A DNA stretch of 13,849 nucleotides from Candidatus Methylomirabilis sp. (GCA_020722945.1 DYJV01000006.1:1-13849); one strand, 5' to 3'. Positions 456 to 13,716 are shown, counted from the first letter of the stretch. Numbers and translations: made by a program. The notes: a model not told the origin generated them from the letters alone.

Positions 456-3400
456 CTATTTCTTCCTATCAAAAATATATGCAAACATGGGTATGTAAAT
501 AAGGGTAAGAATTGTTCCTATCAGTAATCCACCTACCGCCACATCAGCCAATGGCGAAAGTCGTTCCAGCCCTACAGCCATTTCCAGTGCAATAGGTATC
601 ATTCCGGCAATAGTCCCAAAAGCTGTCATAAATACCGGTCTAAACCTGACCCTTACACTCTCCATTGCTGATTCAAAAGCACCTCTTCCACTTTTTTTGA
701 ACTCCTGATAAAAATCTATGAGCAGAACAGAGTTTTTTATAATTATACCAAACAATAACAATATCCCTATAATACTTGGCATACATCTTGGCTTGTTAAA
801 CAGCAACATCCCCCACGCAGCACCTATCATTGACAGGGGCAAAACAAAAATCATAATAAGAGATAAAATCACCGTTCTGTATATGGCAATAAGAGTTATG
901 GTAAGTATCACAATCCCAATACCGATAGCCTTTATCATCCTTGAAAAGCTATCCTTCATCTGTTTTATATCCCCCTCTTGGGAGACTTTTACTCCACTCA
1001 AATTTAATACTTTTAGTTTTTTATTTGCATCATCAGTAATCATTGTCATAGGTCTTGTAGCTCTGTAACCATTAACATCTAATGAATACTGCATATTATC
1101 CCTTTCTATTTTGGATGAAGTAAAGTTGTAACTGACTGTTGCTAATTGAGATAGAGGAATTGCACCTTTTTTGGTATCAATAGGTAACATCTTTAAACTG
1201 TCAATCTCCTGTGAGAAAGGCTCTGTGGCATAAAGCCTCAATGTCTGTACCTGCAATGTATGTAGATTTCCATTAAGAGATACAGGGTATCCTTTCAAAG
1301 GTAGCTGCATAGCTATTTCAATGGGAGTAATACCATATCCCAGTGCCTTATTTTCATTGATGTTGAGCTTAATCTCCACAAAATCATTATCCCAGCTTTT
1401 TGTAATACTTTTAAGCCCTTTTACTTGGTAGAGGGCTTGTTCCACCTTTTTGGCCTGTTCTGGCAGGTAGATATAATCATTGCTGTATAACCTCGTATCC
1501 AGAGTAGCCTTTATACTCGACATTGCTGTAGCTCCAAAATCATACACATCAACATTTACAATATGTTTTAAACTGGAAAGCTCTTTTCTTATTTCATCTT
1601 CTATTTCCCATATATTTTTTTTCCTGCTAAATCTATCTACACAGTTGATGGTCATAATAACTTCTGTGGGGAGAGAACCACTACCGATAGATAAAATCCC
1701 CGGTTCACTTCCTATTGCAACCGAGCTCGTTAATACTTCATCTTTTTGATGGAGCCATTTTAAAAACCCAGAAAGTCTCTTTTCTATGGTTTCCAATGTT
1801 TCATTGGTGCTGAATTTTACATGTGCCTTTATTATCCCTGTGTCCATAGGTGGCATAACATCACCCCCTATAACCGGCATTATATTTTTTAAACTAAAGA
1901 TAAAAAATATAATTAGTGGGATAACAAGGATTAGTTTTCTAAAAATTTTCAATCTACTCCCATTGGAAAATCTTAAGATACCCAAATATACATTTATAAA
2001 TCTCCCTATGGTTTTTTGATATAAATTTTCCAAAACCATCTCTAACTTTGATTTGTTATGCCCCTTTCGATAAAGTATTTTGGAAAAATGGGGAATAAAG
2101 GTAATAGACAAAAAGTAGGAAACTGCCAAAGCTATCAAAAGGGTGCCAATAAGAGGTCTGTATATTTTTTGAGGGAAATCACCCACAAAAAGAAAAGGAA
2201 CCATTACTACTGAGGTGGCTATAGTCCCCGCAAATACTGGCATAATAACCTCTTTTGTCCCTTGAACAATTGATGTATCAAGGTCATTTTTTAATTCTGT
2301 AAGGTGTCTCTCAATATTTTCCAGCACCACCACAGCGTCGTCCACCAGCATTCCTAATGCTAATATTATTGCAGTATAAACAACCATATTTAATTCTCCC
2401 CCTGACATCCAGATAATTGCCAAAGTGGAGCAAAAAACCATGGGGATAGATACAAGAGCCGCAATAATTGCCTTAACATTCCCCAAAAACAACAGAATCA
2501 CTATTAGGGTAAAGATAATTGCATCCCTCAGTGCTTCCAGCATATTTGTATTGGCGGTCTCTATGAGGGTTCTCTGTGTATCTGTTATTTCAAAATTTAT
2601 ATTTTTGTAGTTTTGCTTTAGATTCTTTATAGTCTCCCTTGCAGCCTTGCTTGTGTCTAAAACACTTCCCCCAGGTGCTCTCTGTATGGCAAGAGCAATA
2701 GATTGTTTGCCATTTCCTAAATAGGCAGAAAATCTTTTTTGATAATCCCATTTTACAGTAGCTACATCTGATAATCTTAAATTTGGAGCAACGGGTAATT
2801 GTTTCAACTCTTCGATTATGTCTTTTTCACCATACATTGTAATGGTATAAAACGTGTCTTTTGACAATGTAAAACCCACAGGTATATCTTTATTAACGGA
2901 AAAAATAATTTGTCCAATTTTGCTCAATGGGATAGAGTATTTTTTGAGTTTTAAAGGATCTACATTGATTGTAACAGCACCCTGATAACCTCCAAAAATC
3001 TCTACATTTCCAATGCGGGTATCCCTTAAAAGTTCCGGTTTTATATCGCCTTCAGCAATTTTCCTAATATCTGCTACAGACAAATTCTCATTTTTGGGGC
3101 TTAAAGCAACTACATCCACAGGCAAAGTAAAGGCCCCGGCGGTATAAATTGAAGGATTCAAATCCGCAGGTAACTTGGCTTTTACCTTGTTAACAGCATT
3201 ATTTACATCTACTGCTGCAGCATCCAGACCCTTTTCGTATTCGAATTCTGCTGTAACCACAGAAACCCCAGCGATATTTACAGAACTTACTTCTCTTACC
3301 AAAGATAGTGAGCTCAGCTCCTCTTCTATCGGTTTTGAAACAGTTGCTGCCACATTTGCAGGAGTAGCTCCGGGAACTGTGGACACTACAATTACCTTTG

Positions 3401-3521
3401 GTCTGTCACTATCAGGAAAAAGATTTTTTGGCATGGTAACTAAGCCAAAAATACCCATCACAAACAAGCCCGCAATAATGCTGTAAAGGAGATATGGGCG
3501 ATTATAAAAGAATTCAAACAT
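456..3521 (-). CDS. RND-family efflux pump inner-membrane subunit (AcrB/HAE1-like)
   Basis: Proton-driven resistance-nodulation-division transporter, the inner-membrane pump of a tripartite efflux system. At 1021 residues it is close to the usual length of about 1040. The N-terminal cytosolic stub and first membrane helix (about 10-31) are followed by a periplasmic porter loop whose PGATPANVAATVSKPIEEEL at about 50-69 is typical of the family. Helices cluster at about 333-475 and 862-1015. The relay acids D394 and D395 lie in GMLVDDAVVVLENIERH, and the relay lysine K929 lies in GIIIKNSVLLIDF; together they form the proton pathway and favour the HAE1 (hydrophobic/amphiphilic drug) type over the metal-exporting CusA type. 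The internal repeat is clear, since both halves carry a periplasmic loop after their first helix. It starts 9 bases after the adaptor stop, with AAGGAT as ribosome site. Substrate is unknown. Confidence 0.95.
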   Translation of the reverse strand: MFEFFYNRPYLLYSIIAGLFVMGIFGLVTMPKNLFPDSDRPKVIVVSTVPGATPANVAATVSKPIEEELSSLSLVREVSSVNIAGVSVVTAEFEYEKGLDAAAVDVNNAVNKVKAKLPADLNPSIYTAGAFTLPVDVVALSPKNENLSVADIRKIAEGDIKPELLRDTRIGNVEIFGGYQGAVTINVDPLKLKKYSIPLSKIGQIIFSVNKDIPVGFTLSKDTFYTITMYGEKDIIEELKQLPVAPNLRLSDVATVKWDYQKRFSAYLGNGKQSIALAIQRAPGGSVLDTSKAARETIKNLKQNYKNINFEITDTQRTLIETANTNMLEALRDAIIFTLIVILLFLGNVKAIIAALVSIPMVFCSTLAIIWMSGGELNMVVYTAIILALGMLVDDAVVVLENIERHLTELKNDLDTSIVQGTKEVIMPVFAGTIATSVVMVPFLFVGDFPQKIYRPLIGTLLIALAVSYFLSITFIPHFSKILYRKGHNKSKLEMVLENLYQKTIGRFINVYLGILRFSNGSRLKIFRKLILVIPLIIFFIFSLKNIMPVIGGDVMPPMDTGIIKAHVKFSTNETLETIEKRLSGFLKWLHQKDEVLTSSVAIGSEPGILSIGSGSLPTEVIMTINCVDRFSRKKNIWEIEDEIRKELSSLKHIVNVDVYDFGATAMSSIKATLDTRLYSNDYIYLPEQAKKVEQALYQVKGLKSITKSWDNDFVEIKLNINENKALGYGITPIEIAMQLPLKGYPVSLNGNLHTLQVQTLRLYATEPFSQEIDSLKMLPIDTKKGAIPLSQLATVSYNFTSSKIERDNMQYSLDVNGYRATRPMTMITDDANKKLKVLNLSGVKVSQEGDIKQMKDSFSRMIKAIGIGIVILTITLIAIYRTVILSLIMIFVLPLSMIGAAWGMLLFNKPRCMPSIIGILLLFGIIIKNSVLLIDFYQEFKKSGRGAFESAMESVRVRFRPVFMTAFGTIAGMIPIALEMAVGLERLSPLADVAVGGLLIGTILTLIYIPMFAYIFDRKK

Positions 3522-3530
3522 TTTTTATCC

Positions 3531-4667
3531 TTATCTGTTAATAATATTTAAAGGTGCTCCTGTGGCTATCCTTAAAAGTATATCAGGCATGGCAACAATT
3601 GCAGTTTTACCACCCAAATCTTGATCAGTTATGACCCCTTCGGTGCCAGAAGCCAATATTTTTACAGGAATTTGTTTTGGCTGTTTTTCTTCATATAAAA
3701 AAATGTAGTCTTTGTCGTTTATAGATAAAACAGCATTGTGAGGCAAAACAACATTTTCCCCCTTAAAAACCACCAATTTAATATCCACAAACTCTCCCTC
3801 AACTAAGTTATCAAACACACCTTCTAATTTATAAAGCCTGATCCCACTTTCTGTAGAATTAAGCATCTTTAGTTTGTATGGTTTATCTTGAAAAATTACC
3901 TCATCGGCTTTAATGTTTCCAGGTATCTTTGTTTCTATGTATAAGTTATCCTTTGATGAAATTTTAAACAGCGGTTTGCCTACAAAGACTGTTTCCCCTT
4001 CAGTTGTAAACTTCTCTGATATAATGCCATCTATGTGTGATAATATTACAGAGTAAGAAAGTAGATTTTTTAATTCTAACAAATTATTATTTAAGATTTT
4101 TATTTTATTTTCCATCTCTTTTAAATTATTTTCCGCACTCTTCTTTTGTGCTATCGTAGCAGCAATTGTGCTTTCTTCTTCACTGTATTTTTCAATAGAA
4201 GCACCCTTTACTTTTAGTAATTTTTCCGTTCTTTTGTGTGCGTCTATTAAACTTTTAAGCTTTATATCCAAAGCGTAGATATTCTCTTTAACCGACTCTA
4301 TACTGTTTTTTGCATTTATAATTTCTATTTCAGTCGTAGAAATTTTGGATTTTATGTCGGTATTGTCTATTTCAGCTAAAATTTCCCCTTTTCTTACAAA
4401 ATCTCCATTATTCTTTGTAAGTTTGGTTACCCTGCCGGTAATTTTAGTTGCAACAGTAGAATTGATGTTGGATTTAACTACCCCGATAGTAGGCAGAGTC
4501 AACAATGCAGGTTCATTTTTTAATGTTACAGCCTCAACATTTGCAGTGATAATATCCGCTGCCTCCGCCTTTTTCAGAGCATCTTTTCTCTGTTTTAAAA
4601 CTTTTAAACCTAAAACAAGAACTACCACAATTATAAGGAGTATAATAACATTCTTAGCATATTTCAT
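3531..4667 (-). CDS. RND efflux periplasmic adaptor (membrane-fusion protein)
   Basis: HlyD/AcrA-type adaptor that links the RND pump to the outer-membrane channel. The N terminus has an uncleaved-looking membrane anchor (about 5-23), with no lipobox cysteine. A first half-lipoyl segment at about 72-102 (STVATKITGRVTKLTKNNGD, then VRKGEILAEID) is followed by a charged alpha-helical hairpin at about 103-200 and a second half-lipoyl at about 205-235 (VILSHIDGIISEKFTTEGE). A beta-barrel and membrane-proximal region follow (GEFVDIKLVV, VVLPHNAVL). Length (378) is normal. Its ATG overlaps the stop of the upstream channel gene (ATGA), and GAGGTG lies 5 bases before the start, so translation is probably coupled. 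Family and role are certain; the transported substrate cannot be told. Confidence 0.93.
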   Translation of the reverse strand: MKYAKNVIILLIIVVVLVLGLKVLKQRKDALKKAEAADIITANVEAVTLKNEPALLTLPTIGVVKSNINSTVATKITGRVTKLTKNNGDFVRKGEILAEIDNTDIKSKISTTEIEIINAKNSIESVKENIYALDIKLKSLIDAHKRTEKLLKVKGASIEKYSEEESTIAATIAQKKSAENNLKEMENKIKILNNNLLELKNLLSYSVILSHIDGIISEKFTTEGETVFVGKPLFKISSKDNLYIETKIPGNIKADEVIFQDKPYKLKMLNSTESGIRLYKLEGVFDNLVEGEFVDIKLVVFKGENVVLPHNAVLSINDKDYIFLYEEKQPKQIPVKILASGTEGVITDQDLGGKTAIVAMPDILLRIATGAPLNIINR

Positions 4668-5935
4668 TTTATCACCTCGGTTAATTCATTTCCATTCACT
4701 AATGATTTTTGGGCTATAAGTTTCCAGTTTTCAGCAATGTTGTCATATAAATCTTTCTGTGCATTCAACAAATTTACTTCAAATCTCAGATACTCTTCCA
4801 CAGTCATTCTACCACTTTCATAAGATACCTTTGCAATTTTTAACAATCTTTCAGCATTTAGAATTTGTTCATCTGACCTCTTGATATTTTCCTTTATTAA
4901 CTTTAACTGGGTTTCTATTTTGTTGAGAGTAGCTTCTGTTTCCATTTTTATCTTTTCCAATTTTACATGAGATTTTACCACATCAACTTTTTTAGATTTT
5001 ATGTCTGCCAAAATAGATTTTTCAAATAATGGGATTTTTGCATTCAACATTATTGTGCCGTAACTCTTTTCTATTTGATCGTGGGTATTGTATGCTTCCC
5101 CCATATTTTGAATATAAGAGCCTGACAAATATAGCGAAGGGTAATAAGCCTCCTTAGACATTTTAAGGTTTGTTTTAGCTATCTCAGCCTCTTCCTCTGC
5201 AATACGGAGTTTGAGATCTTCTACAGGCAGAGTAACTACATTTTCTTCCATTTCAAGAGCATGCTCTATCCTGATTCCAGTTAATACATAAATATCTTCA
5301 ATTATTTCAGTCTTTTTACCAAGTAATATATTTTTTTGAGTTTGCAGTGTCAAAATCAAGTTGTCTATGTTGTAAAGCTCTGATTCTGACAATCTGCCAG
5401 TTTCAACCATTATACTTACATCTTCTTTTGTCTTGTAAAGAGACTCTAAACGCTTTTCTAAGTAGTTTAAATTTTCTTCCACAAACTTTAGTGACCCATT
5501 GAGCGATACCACTGTGGCCTGCCTTGCTATTAAATTCATTTTCTTTGTATACTTAAATTGTTTGGTCTGCTGCTCTATTTTTTGTTTTAATGTGTATATC
5601 TCTTTTACAAACAGAGGTATTTTAAACTCTATCCCATACTTGGTAACCCCTTTTGAAAAGGGAAGGGAGTCAGTCTGTGGGTTGGCTTCTGTGGGAGGGA
5701 CTGGCCGCAAATTCACCGGGGAATTATGGTATTCAAACCCTGCTAAGGCATCAATCTGAGGATAAAGTTTGGAAATCACCTTTTCTTTTTCAATATCAAA
5801 TCGTTCAAAAATAATGTTGTCTATTTTTGTATCAGGCTGATGCTTTATGGAGTTAAGCAAATCAGAGATATCTGAAGCCTGAACAAAATTACAAAACAAT
5901 ATAAGAATAACTAAAACATATAAAAATCTCTTCAT
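4664..5935 (-). CDS. TolC-family outer-membrane efflux channel
   Basis: Outer-membrane factor of the tripartite pump. A Sec signal peptide (hydrophobic FLYVLVILILFCNFV, cleavage probably after QAS at about residue 20-22) is followed by two structurally repeated halves rich in long amphipathic helices (about 120-215 and 310-405). Each half contains a strand segment ending in a proline: KYGIEFKIPLF near 100-111 and YGTIMLNAKIPLF near 294-306. This is the usual TolC pattern. The protein (423 residues from this start) is typical of outer-membrane efflux proteins. Two ATGs are possible: 5941 directly abuts the AGAGG ribosome site, while 5935 is 6 bases away, so 5935 is preferred. It is first in the operon, and the adaptor and pump follow with overlap or short spacing. 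Confidence 0.9.
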   Translation of the reverse strand: MKRFLYVLVILILFCNFVQASDISDLLNSIKHQPDTKIDNIIFERFDIEKEKVISKLYPQIDALAGFEYHNSPVNLRPVPPTEANPQTDSLPFSKGVTKYGIEFKIPLFVKEIYTLKQKIEQQTKQFKYTKKMNLIARQATVVSLNGSLKFVEENLNYLEKRLESLYKTKEDVSIMVETGRLSESELYNIDNLILTLQTQKNILLGKKTEIIEDIYVLTGIRIEHALEMEENVVTLPVEDLKLRIAEEEAEIAKTNLKMSKEAYYPSLYLSGSYIQNMGEAYNTHDQIEKSYGTIMLNAKIPLFEKSILADIKSKKVDVVKSHVKLEKIKMETEATLNKIETQLKLIKENIKRSDEQILNAERLLKIAKVSYESGRMTVEEYLRFEVNLLNAQKDLYDNIAENWKLIAQKSLVNGNELTEVIK

Positions 5936-5941
5936 ATTCAT

Positions 5942-7313: not shown

Positions 7314-8585
7314 TTACTTCTTACTTTCGACCTTTTTTGTGGTTTTACTTTTTGCTGCAAGTAATCTCATTGTTTCTGATTCTTTCTTCATTTTAACAAG
7401 AGTTTCTTTCATCTTAGCATAACCATACCATGTAGTATAATCAGGCATATTGTGGAAAGCTGCTTGGTAAGTTTTCATTCTATAATCCATAAACATATTA
7501 TAAAGCTCCTCCTCTATCGGAGTTGTAACTTCATAAAATGTGAGAAGATCAGGATATGGCCATGTAGCTTTGTTACTATCTTTTTTGATTATCCCATCTT
7601 TATAAAGATCTTTTACAATATTTATAGCCTCTGCAAAAATTTTATCAGCAGCTTTTATCATAAGGTCTGAATTTTTCAAATTCTCTTTTGCAAAATTTTC
7701 TGAATGACACTTTTTACAATTTGCAATCATCTTATCTCGCTCTTTCTGCCAGGATTCTTTATCTAATCTTGCAATATTAGCAGCTTTTACAACATCAAGT
7801 CTTGCTGTAGGTTTACCATTAGCATCAAGAACACCCAACCCTTGCAAAATAGTAGCTCTGTATCCCATCCACTCTTTATCATCTTCAGGGAGTCGCAATG
7901 CAAGGAATCCCCAAGATGTCATAACATTATGGTTACCATTTTGCATATGGCAATCTTGACAAGTAGGTCCTCTGTGAGCTGCTCTGTCAGTAATATATGC
8001 CGAACCATGTTTTGAATGAAACCACATCTCCCATTGAGCATGATCAAATCCTGTATGGCAACTGTTACAAGCTTCAGGTTCTTTTGCCTCTTTGACTGAA
8101 AATGCATGTCTTGTATGGCAGCTTTGACAATCCATCCCATATTTATAATATTTTCTATACTCTACTGCCCCTCTTACATTATCATCTTTGATACCAAGAT
8201 TATGACAACCATTACAACCCTTTTGACCAGCAATAAATGCCTCAGGTTGATTGTGAGCAAATTCTGGGAACGCTGTTATAGGTAGTAAGCCAAGAAAATG
8301 TTTCCCTGCCATATACTCTTCTGCTTTTTCAGCATGACATTTCTGGCATGTGCTTATTGTGGGAAGCTTTGCTTTATCAACATCATTAGCACTTGTATGA
8401 GTTTGTCCATGGCATGAATCACATGTTAACTGGGAAGCCATCTTACCCCTATTAAAATCTTCAACAGCTTTAGGTGTCATCTTTTTATGACAGTCTTCAC
8501 ATGTTGATGGCTTTGCTGATAAATTACCAATTAGAAAAAAAAGTAAAAGTGTTAAAAATAAAAGAAAATTTTTAAAATATAACAT
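7314..8585 (-). CDS. octahaem cytochrome c of the hydroxylamine oxidoreductase (HAO) family, short paralogue
   Basis: Periplasmic multihaem cytochrome. A Sec signal peptide (about 1-24, ending LSA) is followed by eight CXXCH sites at residues 29, 55, 80, 124, 153, 173, 209 and 290. The spacing, with seven sites in the first half and the eighth after a gap of about 80, matches the HAO/octahaem family, as does the helical C terminus with FHNMPDYTTWYGY at about 377-389. A His (204) lies in DRAAHRGPTCQDCHM just ahead of haem 7, where HAO has distal active-site residues. There is no CXXCK (NrfA/ONR/OTR type) and no CX15CH (MccA type). At 423 residues it is shorter than typical HAO and ends in a Lys-rich tail (KSKTTKKVESKK). 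AAAAGGAGG precedes the ATG by 8 bases. It is transcribed separately from the main operon. Substrate is unknown; nitrite or hydroxylamine reduction is an inference. Confidence 0.85.
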   Translation of the reverse strand: MLYFKNFLLFLTLLLFFLIGNLSAKPSTCEDCHKKMTPKAVEDFNRGKMASQLTCDSCHGQTHTSANDVDKAKLPTISTCQKCHAEKAEEYMAGKHFLGLLPITAFPEFAHNQPEAFIAGQKGCNGCHNLGIKDDNVRGAVEYRKYYKYGMDCQSCHTRHAFSVKEAKEPEACNSCHTGFDHAQWEMWFHSKHGSAYITDRAAHRGPTCQDCHMQNGNHNVMTSWGFLALRLPEDDKEWMGYRATILQGLGVLDANGKPTARLDVVKAANIARLDKESWQKERDKMIANCKKCHSENFAKENLKNSDLMIKAADKIFAEAINIVKDLYKDGIIKKDSNKATWPYPDLLTFYEVTTPIEEELYNMFMDYRMKTYQAAFHNMPDYTTWYGYAKMKETLVKMKKESETMRLLAAKSKTTKKVESKK

Positions 8586-8982: not shown

Positions 8983-9624
8983 TTAATTTAGTTTTTTCAT
9001 AAGTGGTTCAGAGTAAATAATATAATAAAATGTAGTATTATCTTGAAAATTTTTATCCGACAGTTTGGAAAGAGAGATATCTGAATTAAGTTTTACCATT
9101 AATAAAGGAGTTTTGATATCATTCTCTTTTTTTGCTTTTGAAAATTGTTCACTTAAAATTTTTCCTTTTTCATCAAAGAACCAATAGATATTTTTGTCAT
9201 GGGCTTCAAGGGTTGGCTCTCCAAAATTAATCATTAATTGAGATACTGTTTTTTTTAAAATATCTGTATTAACATGTTTGAAATACTTGTATAACCCAAT
9301 AATAATATTTCTCTCTTTATCAACGCTGATAAAAATATCTTTCTCTTGAAATTTTAAAACACCGGGATAATTTGATTCAATAGGTTTGCCACTCTTAGAG
9401 TTATAATTTTCCCCAATATAGTAACTTCCGATACCTATTTTTAAATTTTTAACTTTTTCCAAAAGAAGTTGATAATCTGATGCACTCAAATTATCAAATG
9501 AAGTAAAAAATAGTATGAAAAAAATAAAAATTTGTTTAACTTGTTTTATTAAATAGTTATTAATTAAAAAAGCGGGGGACCACCCCCGCTTGAATTTACT
9601 GTCCATATCTCGATTTCTGCTCAT
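8983..9624 (-). CDS. secreted or lipid-facing protein of unknown function; start uncertain, possibly a pseudogene
   Basis: I do not recognise a family. The mature region (about 49-213) is a small soluble alpha/beta domain with no cysteine and so no haem. It contains LKIGIGSYYIGENYNS, KDIFISVDKERNIIIGLYKY, MINFGEPTLEAHDKNIYWFF and a C-terminal TFYYIIYSEPLMKKL. A hydrophobic stretch IFIFFILFFTSF followed by LSAS looks like a Sec signal. The open frame begins at ATG 9624 inside the 3' end of the octahaem gene and passes through that gene's terminator (which would encode KFKRGWSPAF). No ATG, GTG or well-placed TTG with a ribosome site lies between the terminator and the signal peptide. Either it starts at 9624 or 9606 by coupling, uses a non-standard codon, or has lost its start. 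Its place between two octahaem cytochromes suggests a periplasmic accessory role. Confidence 0.55.
   Translation of the reverse strand: MSRNRDMDSKFKRGWSPAFLINNYLIKQVKQIFIFFILFFTSFDNLSASDYQLLLEKVKNLKIGIGSYYIGENYNSKSGKPIESNYPGVLKFQEKDIFISVDKERNIIIGLYKYFKHVNTDILKKTVSQLMINFGEPTLEAHDKNIYWFFDEKGKILSEQFSKAKKENDIKTPLLMVKLNSDISLSKLSDKNFQDNTTFYYIIYSEPLMKKLN
9566..9591 (-). terminator. rho-independent terminator of the tetrahaem-NrfC-NrfD-HAO operon
   Basis: On the minus strand AAGCGGGGG, loop TGGT and CCCCCGCTT form a perfect 9-bp GC-rich stem followed by six T residues (9566-9571). It begins 4 bases after the HAO-family stop at 9596. It also lies inside the open frame of the next gene if that frame starts at 9624. 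Confidence 0.93.
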
Positions 9625-11194
9625 CTTTTATCATCTTTTCAATCTGCTCACCAAAGCCTTGTAGACGCCATTTGTGCTCAGGTTTATTTAAAAGTGCATC
9701 TACTGCTTTTTTATATTTCTCAAGTTGCCCATGCTCTTTTGCGATATTTATAACTTCAGGAAGATATTCAAAATAAAATTTGTGAGCAACATCATATAAA
9801 CCATGCCAATGTGCATAATCTGGCCCCATCATAGCAGCTCCATGCCTTGCTCTCCTACCTTCGTGGTGCCAAATTTCCCACCATGCCCATCCAGCATCTG
9901 AATGGAAAAGAGACCCTTTTACAAGACCATCTTTCTGCATCATATCCCATAACTCTTTAGTAGGTTTTGCAAATTTATCATTGTAAGTATAAACAAAATC
10001 ATCAAAATAAGTGTAAAAATTCTCTACTTTCTGAACACTATGACAAGATTTACAAACTCCTTGCATAGTTTTTCTTCGCTCTTTCCAAGAGACAACTTCA
10101 ACAATTTTCTTATCTTTTACAACTTTTTTCATTTTTTCATTTTCAACTACATAATCGTCATCTTTTACAGTTTGCCCAACTTGAGGAGGATATTCACCAG
10201 GAATATCAGCAAAAGTTCCATCATTAAATATTACCCTATTTAATTTTACAGAGATAGGTGGACGTAAAGTCCATGAAATTCTATCACCAACATTATGTGT
10301 ATTTTGAGCTACAGAGCCATTTATCTTTAAATAAGCACCCATATGGCATGTAGAACATGTTGGCGCAAAGTGATAATCTTTCCCAAGCACCCATGTCCCT
10401 GTTTTTAATATATCCATACCATTCATCCCTGAACCTCTTGTAGTTGAAAAGTAAGCAATACCATGCTTTGACTCTTCATAAATCTCTTTTTGAGGATGAT
10501 CTGGACCAAGATGACATTTTGCACAGTTTTGAGGTTGTCTTGCTATTGAAGCTTTAAATGAATGTTTGGAGTGACATGCATTACATGTCCCTTTTGTTCC
10601 ATCAGGATTCAACCTTCCTATCCCTGAATTTGGCCATGTTGTATAATCTATTTTCACAGCTCCAGTTTGGTTTAGGAGGGTTTTACCATCTTTATCTTTC
10701 TGTAATTTGACAATCCCACCATGACACTGCCAGCATCCATTAACAGCATCTGCTTTAGTATCAGGCATACTGCATACAACTTCACCGAGGACATTGTCAG
10801 CAGAAGCAAGTATCTCTCCTGCAGTAGCATGGTGAGAGGTCATCATCTCCTTTGTCTCTCTCTGGTGGCAATATGCACAATCTTTAGGGGTCATCAATGT
10901 TTTGATAAAAGCTCCCTCATGCTTGTAACCGTAAGGGTCACCCTCTTTTGTAGCATGACATGTATAGCACCCTACCGAACCATCTTTTGAAGATGCATGA
11001 ATAGAGTTTTCCCATTGTAAAACAAGAGACTTATTCTCTTTTAAATGACATAGAACACACTTTTTGTTCTTCTCCTGAATGGAAGGATTTTTCACATCTT
11101 TAGACTCATCTGTTGCCCCAAAACAGAAAGATGCAAGAAGAAAGGAAAGAACAAAATTAAGAATTAAAATCTGTTTAACTTGTCGAGTAAACAT
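9596..11194 (-). CDS. hao: octahaem cytochrome c, hydroxylamine oxidoreductase (HAO) family
   Basis: Periplasmic octahaem enzyme. The start is taken at ATG 11194, which has GGAGGT 8 bases upstream; a TTG at 11200 is only 2 bases from it. A Sec signal (about 1-27) precedes eight CXXCH sites at residues 46, 76, 106, 154, 204, 224, 280 and 381. Family signatures include HHATAGEIL after haem 3, CWQCHGG at haem 4 (the catalytic P460 position in HAO), GKDYHFAPTCSTCHMG, which supplies an Asp (273) and His (275) where HAO has its distal pair, and HHEGRRARHGAAMMGPDYAHWHG at about 443-465. Length (532) fits HAO. Whether Tyr460 or another Tyr aligns with the protein-haem cross-link Tyr of oxidative HAO cannot be decided here, so direction (oxidation or reduction) is open. 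Co-transcription with an NrfCD quinol module favours reduction of nitrite or hydroxylamine. Confidence 0.9.
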   Translation of the reverse strand: MFTRQVKQILILNFVLSFLLASFCFGATDESKDVKNPSIQEKNKKCVLCHLKENKSLVLQWENSIHASSKDGSVGCYTCHATKEGDPYGYKHEGAFIKTLMTPKDCAYCHQRETKEMMTSHHATAGEILASADNVLGEVVCSMPDTKADAVNGCWQCHGGIVKLQKDKDGKTLLNQTGAVKIDYTTWPNSGIGRLNPDGTKGTCNACHSKHSFKASIARQPQNCAKCHLGPDHPQKEIYEESKHGIAYFSTTRGSGMNGMDILKTGTWVLGKDYHFAPTCSTCHMGAYLKINGSVAQNTHNVGDRISWTLRPPISVKLNRVIFNDGTFADIPGEYPPQVGQTVKDDDYVVENEKMKKVVKDKKIVEVVSWKERRKTMQGVCKSCHSVQKVENFYTYFDDFVYTYNDKFAKPTKELWDMMQKDGLVKGSLFHSDAGWAWWEIWHHEGRRARHGAAMMGPDYAHWHGLYDVAHKFYFEYLPEVINIAKEHGQLEKYKKAVDALLNKPEHKWRLQGFGEQIEKMIKDEQKSRYGQ

Positions 11195-11202
11195 TTTCAA
11201 AT

Positions 11203-11208
11203 ACCTCC
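11203..11208 (-). promoter_or_regulatory. ribosome binding site deciding the HAO-family start
   Basis: GGAGGT on the minus strand lies 8 bases from ATG 11194 but only 2 from the in-frame TTG at 11200, so initiation is at the ATG and the signal peptide begins MFTRQVKQ. Confidence 0.8.
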
Positions 11209-11232
11209 TTTAAAAATTTATTATTATATTTA

Positions 11233-12408
11233 TCAATTTTCTGCCTCGCTCTGGTCATTCCATAGAGGGAAAATTTTACTTAAAAGATACAGCGTAACAA
11301 CAGGTAGGATAAGAAGTATAACAACAGGTATAATCCCCTCTTTCTCAAAGAAGTGTGGCTGGTAAAATACAAATCCTCTCCCACTTTTAGATACCATCTG
11401 GCCTCCAATAACAACATTCCAACGCATTGCATAGACCTGAATAAGGAGAATTACTGTTGATACAATACCCCAAAATTTAACTGTGGCAAGTGTCAGCTTT
11501 TTGCCCAGAGATAACCATCCTAATATAAACAGAGGTATCACAGAACCTACTATAACTTGCAATATCCAGAAACTAAAAAAGAGTGGACCACTTAAAAGTT
11601 GAGATATTATATGCCAACTTTCAACTCTTAGATAAGCATGAACACCTACATCAAGCATTTCAAGAACAAAATCAACAATCAGAAATCCCCATAAAAATTT
11701 GACAAGTGTTCTTGTGCAATGTTCATCAACTTCTATCTTTTTGAATTTATAGATAAGAATATAAAAAAGAAGTATTCCTGCTATCCCTGAAACTGAAGCA
11801 GATAGTAGAAACACAATCGGCATCAATGGAGTAAACCACCAATGAACAGCTTTTACTCCACCAAAGATAAACCCGGCATATCCATGGAGAGTGCATGCAA
11901 GAGGTATCCCAATACCAGCAAGAAAAGCCATTATCTTATGCTCAGTTTCAATTACTTCATCAGATATATCGTAAACTCCAAGAGTCAAAACCTGATAGAT
12001 ATATCTTTTTATCCCAGTAGATTCATACATCAATTTAACAAGAGTTGGTCTGTAAAGGAAAAGTATTTCAAGAATCAGTATTAAACCATAAAATGAATAT
12101 ACAAATCCAAATCCCGACATAGCTGAACTTGGGTGAGGGGTAAGCATTATATTGAAAGCTCTTTCAGGTCTTCCAAGATGGTTTAGAAGCGGCATTGTGC
12201 AGAAAAACCAAAAAGCAAGAGCAAAAATGAGAGAGAATCTTGAAACAGGTTTTAAACTCTCTATTTTAAAAACATGATAAAGAGATGATACGATAAAAGC
12301 TCCGGCAATCAAACCTGTGATATATGGATATGTAGCTATCATAATTGACCACCAGACCCTATCATTTGGGAAAATGTAACCTATACTCTCGACAGTTTCA
12401 AACATCAT
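11233..12408 (-). CDS. nrfD: NrfD/PsrC-type integral membrane quinol-interacting subunit
   Basis: Polytopic inner-membrane protein that exchanges electrons between the quinone pool and a partner iron-sulfur subunit. At 391 residues it shows about eight to nine hydrophobic helices (roughly 25-46, 57-76, 100-118, 160-182, 190-221, 234-256, 270-298, 308-329 and 357-377). Family landmarks are LNHLGRPERAFNIML at about 75-89 (loop after helix 2), HGYAGFIFG in the helix 4 region (about 175-183) and RWNVVIGGQ at about 329-337, typical of NrfD/PsrC/DmsC-like subunits. The ATG overlaps the ferredoxin stop (ATGA) and follows GGAGGTGTT, so translation is coupled. The octahaem gene follows after 38 bases. 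It is most like the PsrC/NrfD branch and not DmsC. Quinol oxidation is inferred from partner genes. Confidence 0.92.
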   Translation of the reverse strand: MMFETVESIGYIFPNDRVWWSIMIATYPYITGLIAGAFIVSSLYHVFKIESLKPVSRFSLIFALAFWFFCTMPLLNHLGRPERAFNIMLTPHPSSAMSGFGFVYSFYGLILILEILFLYRPTLVKLMYESTGIKRYIYQVLTLGVYDISDEVIETEHKIMAFLAGIGIPLACTLHGYAGFIFGGVKAVHWWFTPLMPIVFLLSASVSGIAGILLFYILIYKFKKIEVDEHCTRTLVKFLWGFLIVDFVLEMLDVGVHAYLRVESWHIISQLLSGPLFFSFWILQVIVGSVIPLFILGWLSLGKKLTLATVKFWGIVSTVILLIQVYAMRWNVVIGGQMVSKSGRGFVFYQPHFFEKEGIIPVVILLILPVVTLYLLSKIFPLWNDQSEAEN

Positions 12409-13169
12409 AACACCTCCTGCCTAAAATTTGTATATTCGAGTCTTGGGTTGGTCCCCATGTCAGGTTTTAATCTAAAAAGTGGAGCACCACTATTTACAAT
12501 TTTGTAAACATCAGAATTTTTATCATTTAGATCACCAAATTTTCTTGCACCAGTTGGGCAGGCATTAACACATGCAGGCAAAAGACCTCTTCTGACTCTA
12601 TGATAGCACCATGTGCATTTATCAGCAGTATGTGTATGTTCATTCAAAAAACGAGAACCGTATGGACATGCTTGGATGCAATACATACACCCTACACATC
12701 TTTTATAATCAATAAGAACAAAACCATCGTCTGTTTTAAATGTAGCTCCAGCAGGACAGACTTGAACACATGCAGGATCCTCACACATATTACATAATTT
12801 GGGAACAAAGAAACTATCCTTGACTTTCTTGTCTGTTTTTACTTTATCATTAAAGCCATTAACTCCTCCATTTGGAGAATCAATTATGACCTCACCATCC
12901 TCTGTAATAGTATATCTTTCAACCCATGTCCTTGCAACTCCGTCAGGCACATTATACTCCCTCTTATCAGCAACACAACATGACCCACAACCTATACAAG
13001 AATTGACATCAATAATAAAAGCATATTCATGTTTTGAAGGATCATAATTTTCATGAATATTGAGCTGCTTCTTTATAAAATCAGGCATTGGCATAACAAG
13101 ATAAACTGCACCTGAGGCTGCTGCAATTCCGAGCTTTTTTAGAAACTCTCTTCTCGATTCATGAGACAT
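12405..13169 (-). CDS. Tat-exported 4x[4Fe-4S] ferredoxin subunit (NrfC/PsrB type)
   Basis: Electron-transfer subunit between the NrfD membrane partner and the cytochromes, on the periplasmic face. A twin-arginine signal (SRREFLKKLGIAAASGAVYL, residues 5-24) precedes four cysteine motifs. Motif I is C58, C61, C64 (CIGCGSCCVADK); II is C126, C129, C134, C138; III is C158, C161, C164, C168; IV is C185, C188, C200, C204. Motifs II-IV are complete. In motif I the expected fourth Cys position (68) is Asp, and an extra Cys (65) follows C64. ATG 13169 is chosen because GGGAGG lies 6 bases upstream; a TTG at 13187 lies before that site. The gene starts 1 base after the tetrahaem gene stop and overlaps nrfD by 4 bases. 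Confidence 0.92.
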   Translation of the reverse strand: MSHESRREFLKKLGIAAASGAVYLVMPMPDFIKKQLNIHENYDPSKHEYAFIIDVNSCIGCGSCCVADKREYNVPDGVARTWVERYTITEDGEVIIDSPNGGVNGFNDKVKTDKKVKDSFFVPKLCNMCEDPACVQVCPAGATFKTDDGFVLIDYKRCVGCMYCIQACPYGSRFLNEHTHTADKCTWCYHRVRRGLLPACVNACPTGARKFGDLNDKNSDVYKIVNSGAPLFRLKPDMGTNPRLEYTNFRQEVL

Positions 13170-13170
13170 T

Positions 13171-13716
13171 TTAATCCTCCCTTGCAAAAATTTTGTTCAT
13201 ATGTTTGATGTTTTCAAGCGGTTGGTGAACTATATGACACTGAGTGCACAAATGATCTAATCTAACATTTTTATCTTTTAAATGATCAGGCATTATAATG
13301 GTTTTTATCGGCTTTTTACCCTTTTCCCTTCCAGTTACTTGACCATTATGGCATCTCAGACATTCATCGTTAAGAGCCTTATCTTTGGCAACAATAAGGT
13401 GTCCTATCAACTCCTCTTTAAGATTAATATGCTTAGACCCAGGTCCATGGCAAAATTCACAAGATAAACTTTTGTGAGCCCCCTCTATCTGCATCTGATA
13501 TTCAACAGTATGACATTTTTGACACGATGAGTTAGTAAGATGGGTTATATCTCTTGTAGTTTCCTCTGAGATAGCAGAAAGTCTAAAATATTTGTAAAAA
13601 ACACTTCCATGATTACCAAAATCTGAAGGAGTAAAAACAAAAAAAACTATCCCTGAAAAAATTACTATGCAAATCAAAATAGTAATAACTCGCTTCAAGT
13701 ATCTACTTTTATTCAC
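13171..13716 (-). CDS. membrane-anchored tetrahaem cytochrome c
   Basis: First gene of the operon. The N-terminal hydrophobic helix (about 10-28) is probably an uncleaved anchor, since no good signal-peptidase site follows. The periplasmic part has four CXXCH sites at 65, 86, 119 and 157 (CQKCH, CEFCHG, CLRCH, CTQCH), with extra His residues suitable as second axial ligands (H80, H96, H145, H164). The start is GTG, forced by the ribosome site AGGGGG 6 bases upstream. At 181 residues it is close in size to NapC/NrfH proteins, but motif spacing and flanks do not clearly match them. It more resembles the small multihaem subunits found with NrfCD-type complexes, so the likely role is relaying electrons from the ferredoxin subunit to the octahaem enzyme. 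Confidence 0.85.
   Translation of the reverse strand: MNKSRYLKRVITILICIVIFSGIVFFVFTPSDFGNHGSVFYKYFRLSAISEETTRDITHLTNSSCQKCHTVEYQMQIEGAHKSLSCEFCHGPGSKHINLKEELIGHLIVAKDKALNDECLRCHNGQVTGREKGKKPIKTIIMPDHLKDKNVRLDHLCTQCHIVHQPLENIKHMNKIFARED
13176..13181 (-). promoter_or_regulatory. ribosome binding site deciding the ferredoxin start
   Basis: GGGAGG on the minus strand, inside the last codons of the tetrahaem gene, lies 6 bases before ATG 13169 and thus selects it over the TTG at 13187. Confidence 0.8.

Follow-up and report, generated by a model that had tools for sequence, protein, structure and literature searches.

A four-gene operon on the minus strand of a contig of Candidatus Methylomirabilis sp. 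(GCA_020722945.1, DYJV01000006.1:1-13849; these 13,849 nucleotides are referred to as the window) encodes, in this order, a tetrahaem cytochrome c, an NrfC-like iron-sulfur protein, an NrfD-like membrane protein and an octahaem cytochrome c of the HAO family. Its products probably form a membrane-bound menaquinol:nitrite (or hydroxylamine) oxidoreductase, in which an enzyme of the epsilon-Hao type would serve an NrfA-independent ammonification. In such a system, the NrfD-like subunit would oxidise menaquinol on the periplasmic side, and the electrons would travel via the Fe-S chain of the Tat-exported NrfC-like protein to the membrane-anchored tetrahaem cytochrome, which would take the role of NrfB and pass them on to the periplasmic octahaem enzyme. 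The latter, which is devoid of a tyrosine cross-link, would reduce nitrite from nitrate reductase to hydroxylamine and/or ammonium, and cytoplasmic Hcp could handle hydroxylamine or NO. The analysis establishes the order of the genes, their domains, haem and signal motifs, the signature residues, the phylogenetic position, the recurrence of the locus, its gene neighbours and the absence of NrfA; that the products form a complex, which way the electrons flow, and what is reduced to what are inferred.

All significant PDB matches of the octahaem protein belong to the HAO family (best: IhOCC of Ignicoccus hospitalis, 4qo5, E 7e-43, residues 67-310), and its profile matches are to HAO-type and general multihaem families. 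A GPDHP motif contains Asp234 and His235, which we take to be the active-site Asp-His pair of the family. Where N. europaea HAO has its cross-linking Tyr467, the protein carries Trp465, and eight residues earlier Met457 (Table 1). This combination, i.e., Trp at the cross-link Tyr site plus Met eight residues earlier, is the published signature of epsilon-Hao and the criterion used here, and a missing cross-link Tyr goes along with reductive catalysis (PMC8940962). The pair is present in 45 of the 46 sequences of the GPDHP-motif group that have residues at these sites, but in none of nine octa2-type and none of eight IhOCC-type sequences. A one-column alternative in the MAFFT alignment puts a His of the window protein opposite Tyr467; a Tyr is found there in no alignment.

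Maximum-likelihood trees, in which the references are partial sequences taken from the PDB search alignments, place the octahaem protein in a clade of 43 sequences with an ultrafast bootstrap (UFBoot) support of 100, which excludes HAO, hydrazine dehydrogenase (HDH) and IhOCC. The initial annotation had expected the enzyme to differ from oxidative HAO and not to group with the cross-linked enzymes, and both the Trp in place of Tyr467 and the trees agree with this. Oxidative HAO and HDH were accordingly rejected as identities: the cross-link Tyr is never present, and there is no grouping with N. europaea HAO, Kuenenia HAO or HDH. Membership in IhOCC was rejected as well, since 4qo5 falls in a separate clade (support 100/100); although it is the best solved-structure match, it has DPDVP for GPDHP and Phe for Trp. 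An AlphaFold2 model of the octahaem protein, computed with three sequences, reached a pLDDT of 45 and was not used.

The other three proteins constitute the predicted quinol module. The profile scores of the NrfC-like protein (TtrB 221 bits, DsrO 179, NrfC 162) all lie under the curated cut-offs, its top PDB match being 2vpw, "NrfC protein". The NrfC-like and NrfD-like proteins likewise score below the equivalog cut-offs of NrfABCD (NrfC 162 versus 377.6 bits, NrfD 56 versus 347.6 bits). Identity to the counterparts in related loci amounts to 60-67% for the NrfC-like and 61-64% for the NrfD-like protein, and to 42-46% for the tetrahaem cytochrome in four such loci. Judged by sequence, NrfC and NrfD of the window are a subfamily of their own. 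The tetrahaem cytochrome, which profile searches assign to the Cytochrom_c3_2/C7 type, is likely the electron relay from NrfC to the octahaem enzyme; a homologue also stands ahead of NrfC-NrfD in another operon type. The closest NrfD relatives beyond the locus (49-55% identity, in Desulfobacterota-type genomes) mostly lie in operons of the order tetrahaem-NrfC-NrfD-(NarI-like/CCG Fe-S protein)-heptahaem. The three-gene cassette is thus a shared quinone module, with the octahaem enzyme as one partner; presumably, the cassette predates this pairing. The heptahaem operons themselves (L153, L154, L155, L157, L158 and L159, with no tetrahaem gene picked up in L157) might encode a membrane redox complex, which no named NCBIfam system matches.

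The order tetrahaem-NrfC-NrfD-octahaem, followed by a gene for a small exported protein (P5), is kept in four other loci in Desulfobacterota-type genomes (L004/G145, the metagenome-assembled genome S144_36; L121/G528; L122/G174; L123/G454). This favours the initial annotation, which had proposed a search for the same gene order and named its absence elsewhere as refuting. Behind P5, all four loci carry a gene for a second exported protein and then those for NapM, NapA, NapG and NapH, on one strand, and a histidine kinase/response regulator pair flanks the far side. A further genome, G001, has octahaem-P5-kinase-regulator on a contig that begins inside the octahaem gene, so that the locus is now found in six genomes and is complete in five. 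Among 395 genomes drawn from the phylum of L004, close homologues of the octahaem protein (E<1e-240) and of NrfD (E<1e-150) occur in the identical four genomes.

Across the clade, the quinol partner varies: sister enzymes in L036 and L124 pair with a Rieske protein and cytochrome b, more distant members in L129 and L135 with a DsrOP-type module that has its own tetrahaem cytochrome, and those on plasmids of Desulfobaculum bizertense and Desulfosarcina ovata with a NapC/NirT cytochrome. Together with the NrfCD form, this indicates that the module is interchangeable. A wider reading, namely that a single reductive octahaem family has taken on at least four quinol modules and that its NrfCD form may work, unlike NrfHA, as a nitrite ammonification complex that translocates ions and conserves energy, is tentative and less likely than not.

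The gene neighbours of the clade point to N-oxides. Nap genes adjoin the enzyme in L004, L121, L122, L123, L133 and L137 (NapA of L137 scores above its cut-off, and the L133 enzyme is near-identical to that of L137), Hcp in L129 and L135, and NirB in L130. In L135 (2101-11375), a run on one strand comprises Hcp, two small proteins (one a ferredoxin), a sulfite-reductase-C-like protein, tetrahaem cytochrome, DsrO, DsrP, octahaem cytochrome and an FprA-type flavoprotein, the latter named by likeness rather than by profile; in this locus, the octahaem family has independently been paired with a quinol module, alongside N-oxide enzymes. On the Desulfosarcina ovata plasmid, norR and a nitric-oxide reductase gene adjoin the NapC/NirT-octahaem pair. 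This plasmid (Do28_1, L167), which is mobilizable, has a Tn3 transposase and also carries hemerythrin beside these genes, places N-oxide genes of a sulfate reducer on mobile DNA.

Genome content was assessed by family searches, in which NrfA was not found in any of the six genomes with a window-type enzyme, apart from one sub-threshold fragment in G174. Hcp-family matches occur in all six; Hcp of the window genome scores 831 bits against a curated cut-off of 367, and its gene lies on contig C53 (L089:6398-9794), divergent from a decahaem cytochrome gene. A sirohaem-type match, which proved to be a protein of 207 aa encoded in a run of genes with a ferredoxin, was rejected as NirB. Otr is present in G528 and G174, with a NapA identity of 78.6% (79% for Thermosulfurimonas dismutans/Dissulfuribacter thermophilus, PMC5276818). 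The sole NapA operon found in the window genome is napAGHBFL-like, a gene order of the Campylobacterota type, and lies on contig C119 (L087). The tetranucleotide correlation of this contig is 0.68-0.73, compared to 0.87-0.93 for the other contigs, and the genome is rated 5.8% contaminated. Because of its deviating composition, NapA of C119 is weak evidence only.

The same gene neighbourhoods have to be weighed for other functions. It is unlikely that the operon encodes a reductase that would transfer quinol electrons to a sulfur compound (tetrathionate, polysulfide, sulfite or another oxyanion), comparable to MccACD for sulfite. The proximity of NrfC to the TtrB and DsrO models and the pairing of short-enzyme relatives with a DsrP above the cut-off would fit such a role; moreover, tetrathionate or polysulfides have been offered as an alternative (PMC5276818), and a role in sulfur metabolism has been suggested for clade I HAO-family proteins of Desulfobacterota (PMC9213671). 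However, the clade neighbours are N-oxide genes (NapA, Hcp, NirB, NorR/nitric-oxide reductase and FprA), and even the DsrP-type pair of L135 shares its run with Hcp and FprA. Furthermore, all eight haem motifs of the window enzyme are canonical CxxCH, unlike those of MccA, which has one atypical haem site. Some of these neighbours, i.e., FprA and Hcp in L135 and norR, nitric-oxide reductase and hemerythrin on the D. ovata plasmid, as well as the sensor kinase that is encoded divergently in the loci and has a haem-binding Tll0287-type domain, might instead speak for detoxification rather than respiration, with quinol-fed removal of NO or hydroxylamine that arises from nitrate reduction. We consider this quite improbable, given that the close members share a strand run with a complete set of respiratory nap genes, in genomes without NrfA, and that an NrfD/NrfC module would be costly if used for detoxification only. 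The reverse direction, in which the octahaem protein would oxidise hydroxylamine or hydrazine and the NrfCD module would reduce quinone, is in keeping with membership in the HAO family and with the ability of NrfD proteins to work either way (Qrc, Hyd-2; PMC8076601), but is highly improbable in view of the absent cross-link Tyr, a trait associated with reductive catalysis (PMC8940962), the position outside the HAO/HDH clade, and the NapA neighbours.

A different group of observations counts against menaquinol-dependent nitrite (or hydroxylamine) reduction. No biochemical data were found for any member of the NrfCD-linked clade, and the tree is without named epsilon-Hao sequences of Campylobacterota. 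The NrfCD-tetrahaem cassette has close kin in the CCG-type Fe-S/heptahaem operons, and is thus not dedicated to nitrogen. Otr, which might also reduce nitrite, is present in T. dismutans and D. thermophilus, for which a locus of the same kind has been published. In the window genome, nap does not stand beside the operon, and C119, its only nap contig, may be a contaminant. The claim of the initial annotation that a quinol module is wired to an HAO-family enzyme with an N-oxide substrate is well supported by comparison.

This arrangement had initially been proposed to be a distinct reductase system, but it is not new: the same four-gene cluster was reported for T. dismutans in 2016 (TDIS_0606-0609), as an oxidoreductase of unsettled specificity that was thought to face the cytoplasm (PMC4911364), and in 2017 it was described for both T. 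dismutans and D. thermophilus as belonging to a cluster of 11 genes, among them napMADGH, for which a function in nitrite reduction was proposed (PMC5276818). The locus is thereby published for two deep-sea bacteria, and the layout of L004, L121, L122 and L123, with P5, another gene and nap behind the four genes, is that of the 11-gene cluster. Both organisms lack NrfA and convert nitrate to ammonium in culture (PMC5276818); for Caldithrix (PMC5317091) and Deferribacter (PMC6896113), a similar ammonification based on an octahaem protein has been put forward. Contrary to the orientation suggested in 2016, towards the cytoplasm, the Tat motif of NrfC speaks for the periplasm, as does haem biology. 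TDIS_0606-0609 and DBT_2326-2329 resemble the window operon in having a HaoA homologue, an NrfD-family protein, a TtrB-like Fe-S protein and a membrane-anchored cytochrome c. They differ in the adjoining genes for two periplasmic proteins and napMADGH, whereas in the window only P5 follows, without a second periplasmic gene, and nap lies on another contig. In addition, the window stems from a distant lineage (64-67% octahaem identity) and has a second octahaem gene 1 kb downstream of the operon.

Among other known systems, epsilon-Hao of Nautilia and Campylobacter is a HAO-family octahaem protein without the Tyr cross-link, has the Trp and the Met eight residues before it, and is a proposed nitrite reductase acting with Hcp. 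The electron donor of epsilon-Hao in Campylobacterota is a cytochrome of the NapC/NirT type, whereas the window enzyme is partnered by tetrahaem-NrfC-NrfD, and NapC/NirT is the partner in its distant relatives only. Of the difference from epsilon-HAO that had been suggested initially, the electron donor thus remains, but not the enzyme itself, as the octahaem protein carries the epsilon-Hao signature. The gamma-proteobacterial nitrite reductase NrfABCD also comprises an NrfD quinol oxidase, an NrfC Fe-S protein, a separate multihaem relay (NrfB) and a periplasmic multihaem reductase. In the window, by contrast, NrfA is missing, the relay is a membrane-anchored protein with four haems, and NrfC and NrfD score far under the Nrf cut-offs; NrfABCD was rejected on these scores and on the absence of the pentahaem NrfA (PF02335) from the window genome. 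In MccACD, an octahaem reductase is likewise supplied by NrfC/NrfD-like subunits, but MccA belongs to another octahaem family with its atypical haem site, and a tetrahaem relay is not listed for MccACD (PMC8076601). Membership in MccACD was rejected, as no MccA is among the PDB matches and the window enzyme has eight CxxCH motifs. The Caldithrix type (PMC5317091), L036, L063 and L124 share a related octahaem protein with its own quinol module, and nap adjoins in Caldithrix and L063; their module is of the Rieske/cytochrome b kind, however, and that of the window is NrfCD. The window operon hence appears to work like NrfABCD or MccACD while belonging to neither, and to have the residues of epsilon-Hao but not its gene partner.

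The window has 33% G+C and forms the initial 13.8 kb of a 56.5 kb contig (C110) in a draft genome of 2.5 Mb. As initially annotated, the four genes are tightly spaced on the minus strand, with junctions of 1 bp, a 4 bp overlap and about 38 bp if the preferred starts are used. For the NrfC-like gene, ATG 13169 behind GGGAGG is preferred over the listed TTG 13187; for the octahaem gene, whose open reading frame (ORF) is listed to TTG 11200, ATG 11194 behind AAAGGAGG is the more likely start. A strong hairpin does follow the octahaem gene as described, and is the strongest among 4 terminator-like sites in the region (chance expectation 3.4). However, the stop codon of the octahaem gene is overlapped by the P5 ORF, and the hairpin sits within the 5' portion of that ORF; G001 has a similar hairpin at the equivalent place within P5. 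In all six related loci, a P5 homologue (22-48% identical) comes immediately after the octahaem gene; searches of Pfam and NCBIfam profiles with P5 gave no match. Since the hairpin lies within the start of P5, the unit is not taken to end at the listed terminator and is best read as comprising 4+1 genes, with the hairpin as a probable attenuator.

Table 1. Features of the octahaem operon and their positions in the window
Feature	Position	Strand	Details
Tetrahaem cytochrome c, membrane-anchored	13171..13716	-	181 aa, 4 CxxCH, one N-terminal transmembrane segment, GTG start
NrfC-like periplasmic Fe-S protein	12405..13169	-	Fer4_11, 16 Cys, up to four [4Fe-4S] clusters, Tat motif SRREFLKK
NrfD-like integral membrane subunit, predicted to oxidise quinol	11233..12408	-	391 aa, 8 transmembrane segments, PF03916 E 2e-39
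Octahaem cytochrome c, predicted periplasmic, HAO family, epsilon-Hao type	9596..11194	-	8 canonical CxxCH, PF13447 E 3e-17
Asp234-His235 codons	10496..10501	-	GPDHP motif, by alignment
Met457 codon	9830..9832	-	eight residues before Trp465; second half of epsilon-Hao signature
Trp465 codon	9806..9808	-	aligns with cross-linking Tyr467 of N. europaea HAO
P5, small exported protein, conserved	8986..9624	-	fifth in the gene set; start position uncertain
Hairpin plus T-run, terminator or attenuator	9570..9591	-	GC-rich 9 bp stem, inside 5' end of P5 ORF

The second octahaem HAO-like protein (window 7314-8585, minus strand; 423 aa, 8 CxxCH) belongs to a clade of its own and keeps the Trp, with His instead of Met at the epsilon-Hao sites; its nearest relative (L050, G022) is also encoded about 1.2 kb from an octahaem gene, in that case of the IhOCC type. 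Just past the window end, and divergent from the operon, lie a histidine kinase with a Tll0287-like haem-binding sensor domain (one CxxCH) and an OmpR-type regulator (C110 14040-16287, plus strand); each of the six related loci has a regulator of the same family beside its octahaem cluster. The window further contains what looks from its sequences like an RND-type efflux operon (456-5941, minus strand), with an inner membrane pump of 1021 aa, a membrane fusion protein of 378 aa and an outer membrane factor of 425 aa. Elsewhere on C110, beside nuo genes, is a formate dehydrogenase alpha gene with a NuoG-like N-terminus (24073-26754; L054:4073-6754, minus strand) and an in-frame TGA at the selenocysteine site (CARLUHSST), which scores 880 bits to Fdh-alpha with TGA read as Sec.

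Relative to the published locus type, the present analysis shows that the locus recurs more widely, that it includes a fifth gene, that the enzyme bears the signature residues, that quinol modules are exchanged and that some related loci contain Hcp. Supported by its gene neighbours (Nap, Hcp, NO enzymes) and these residues, the locus provides a defined, testable candidate for the route from nitrite to ammonium in several nitrate-ammonifying bacteria without NrfA. Should NrfD move ions, the terminal step of this route would itself conserve energy.

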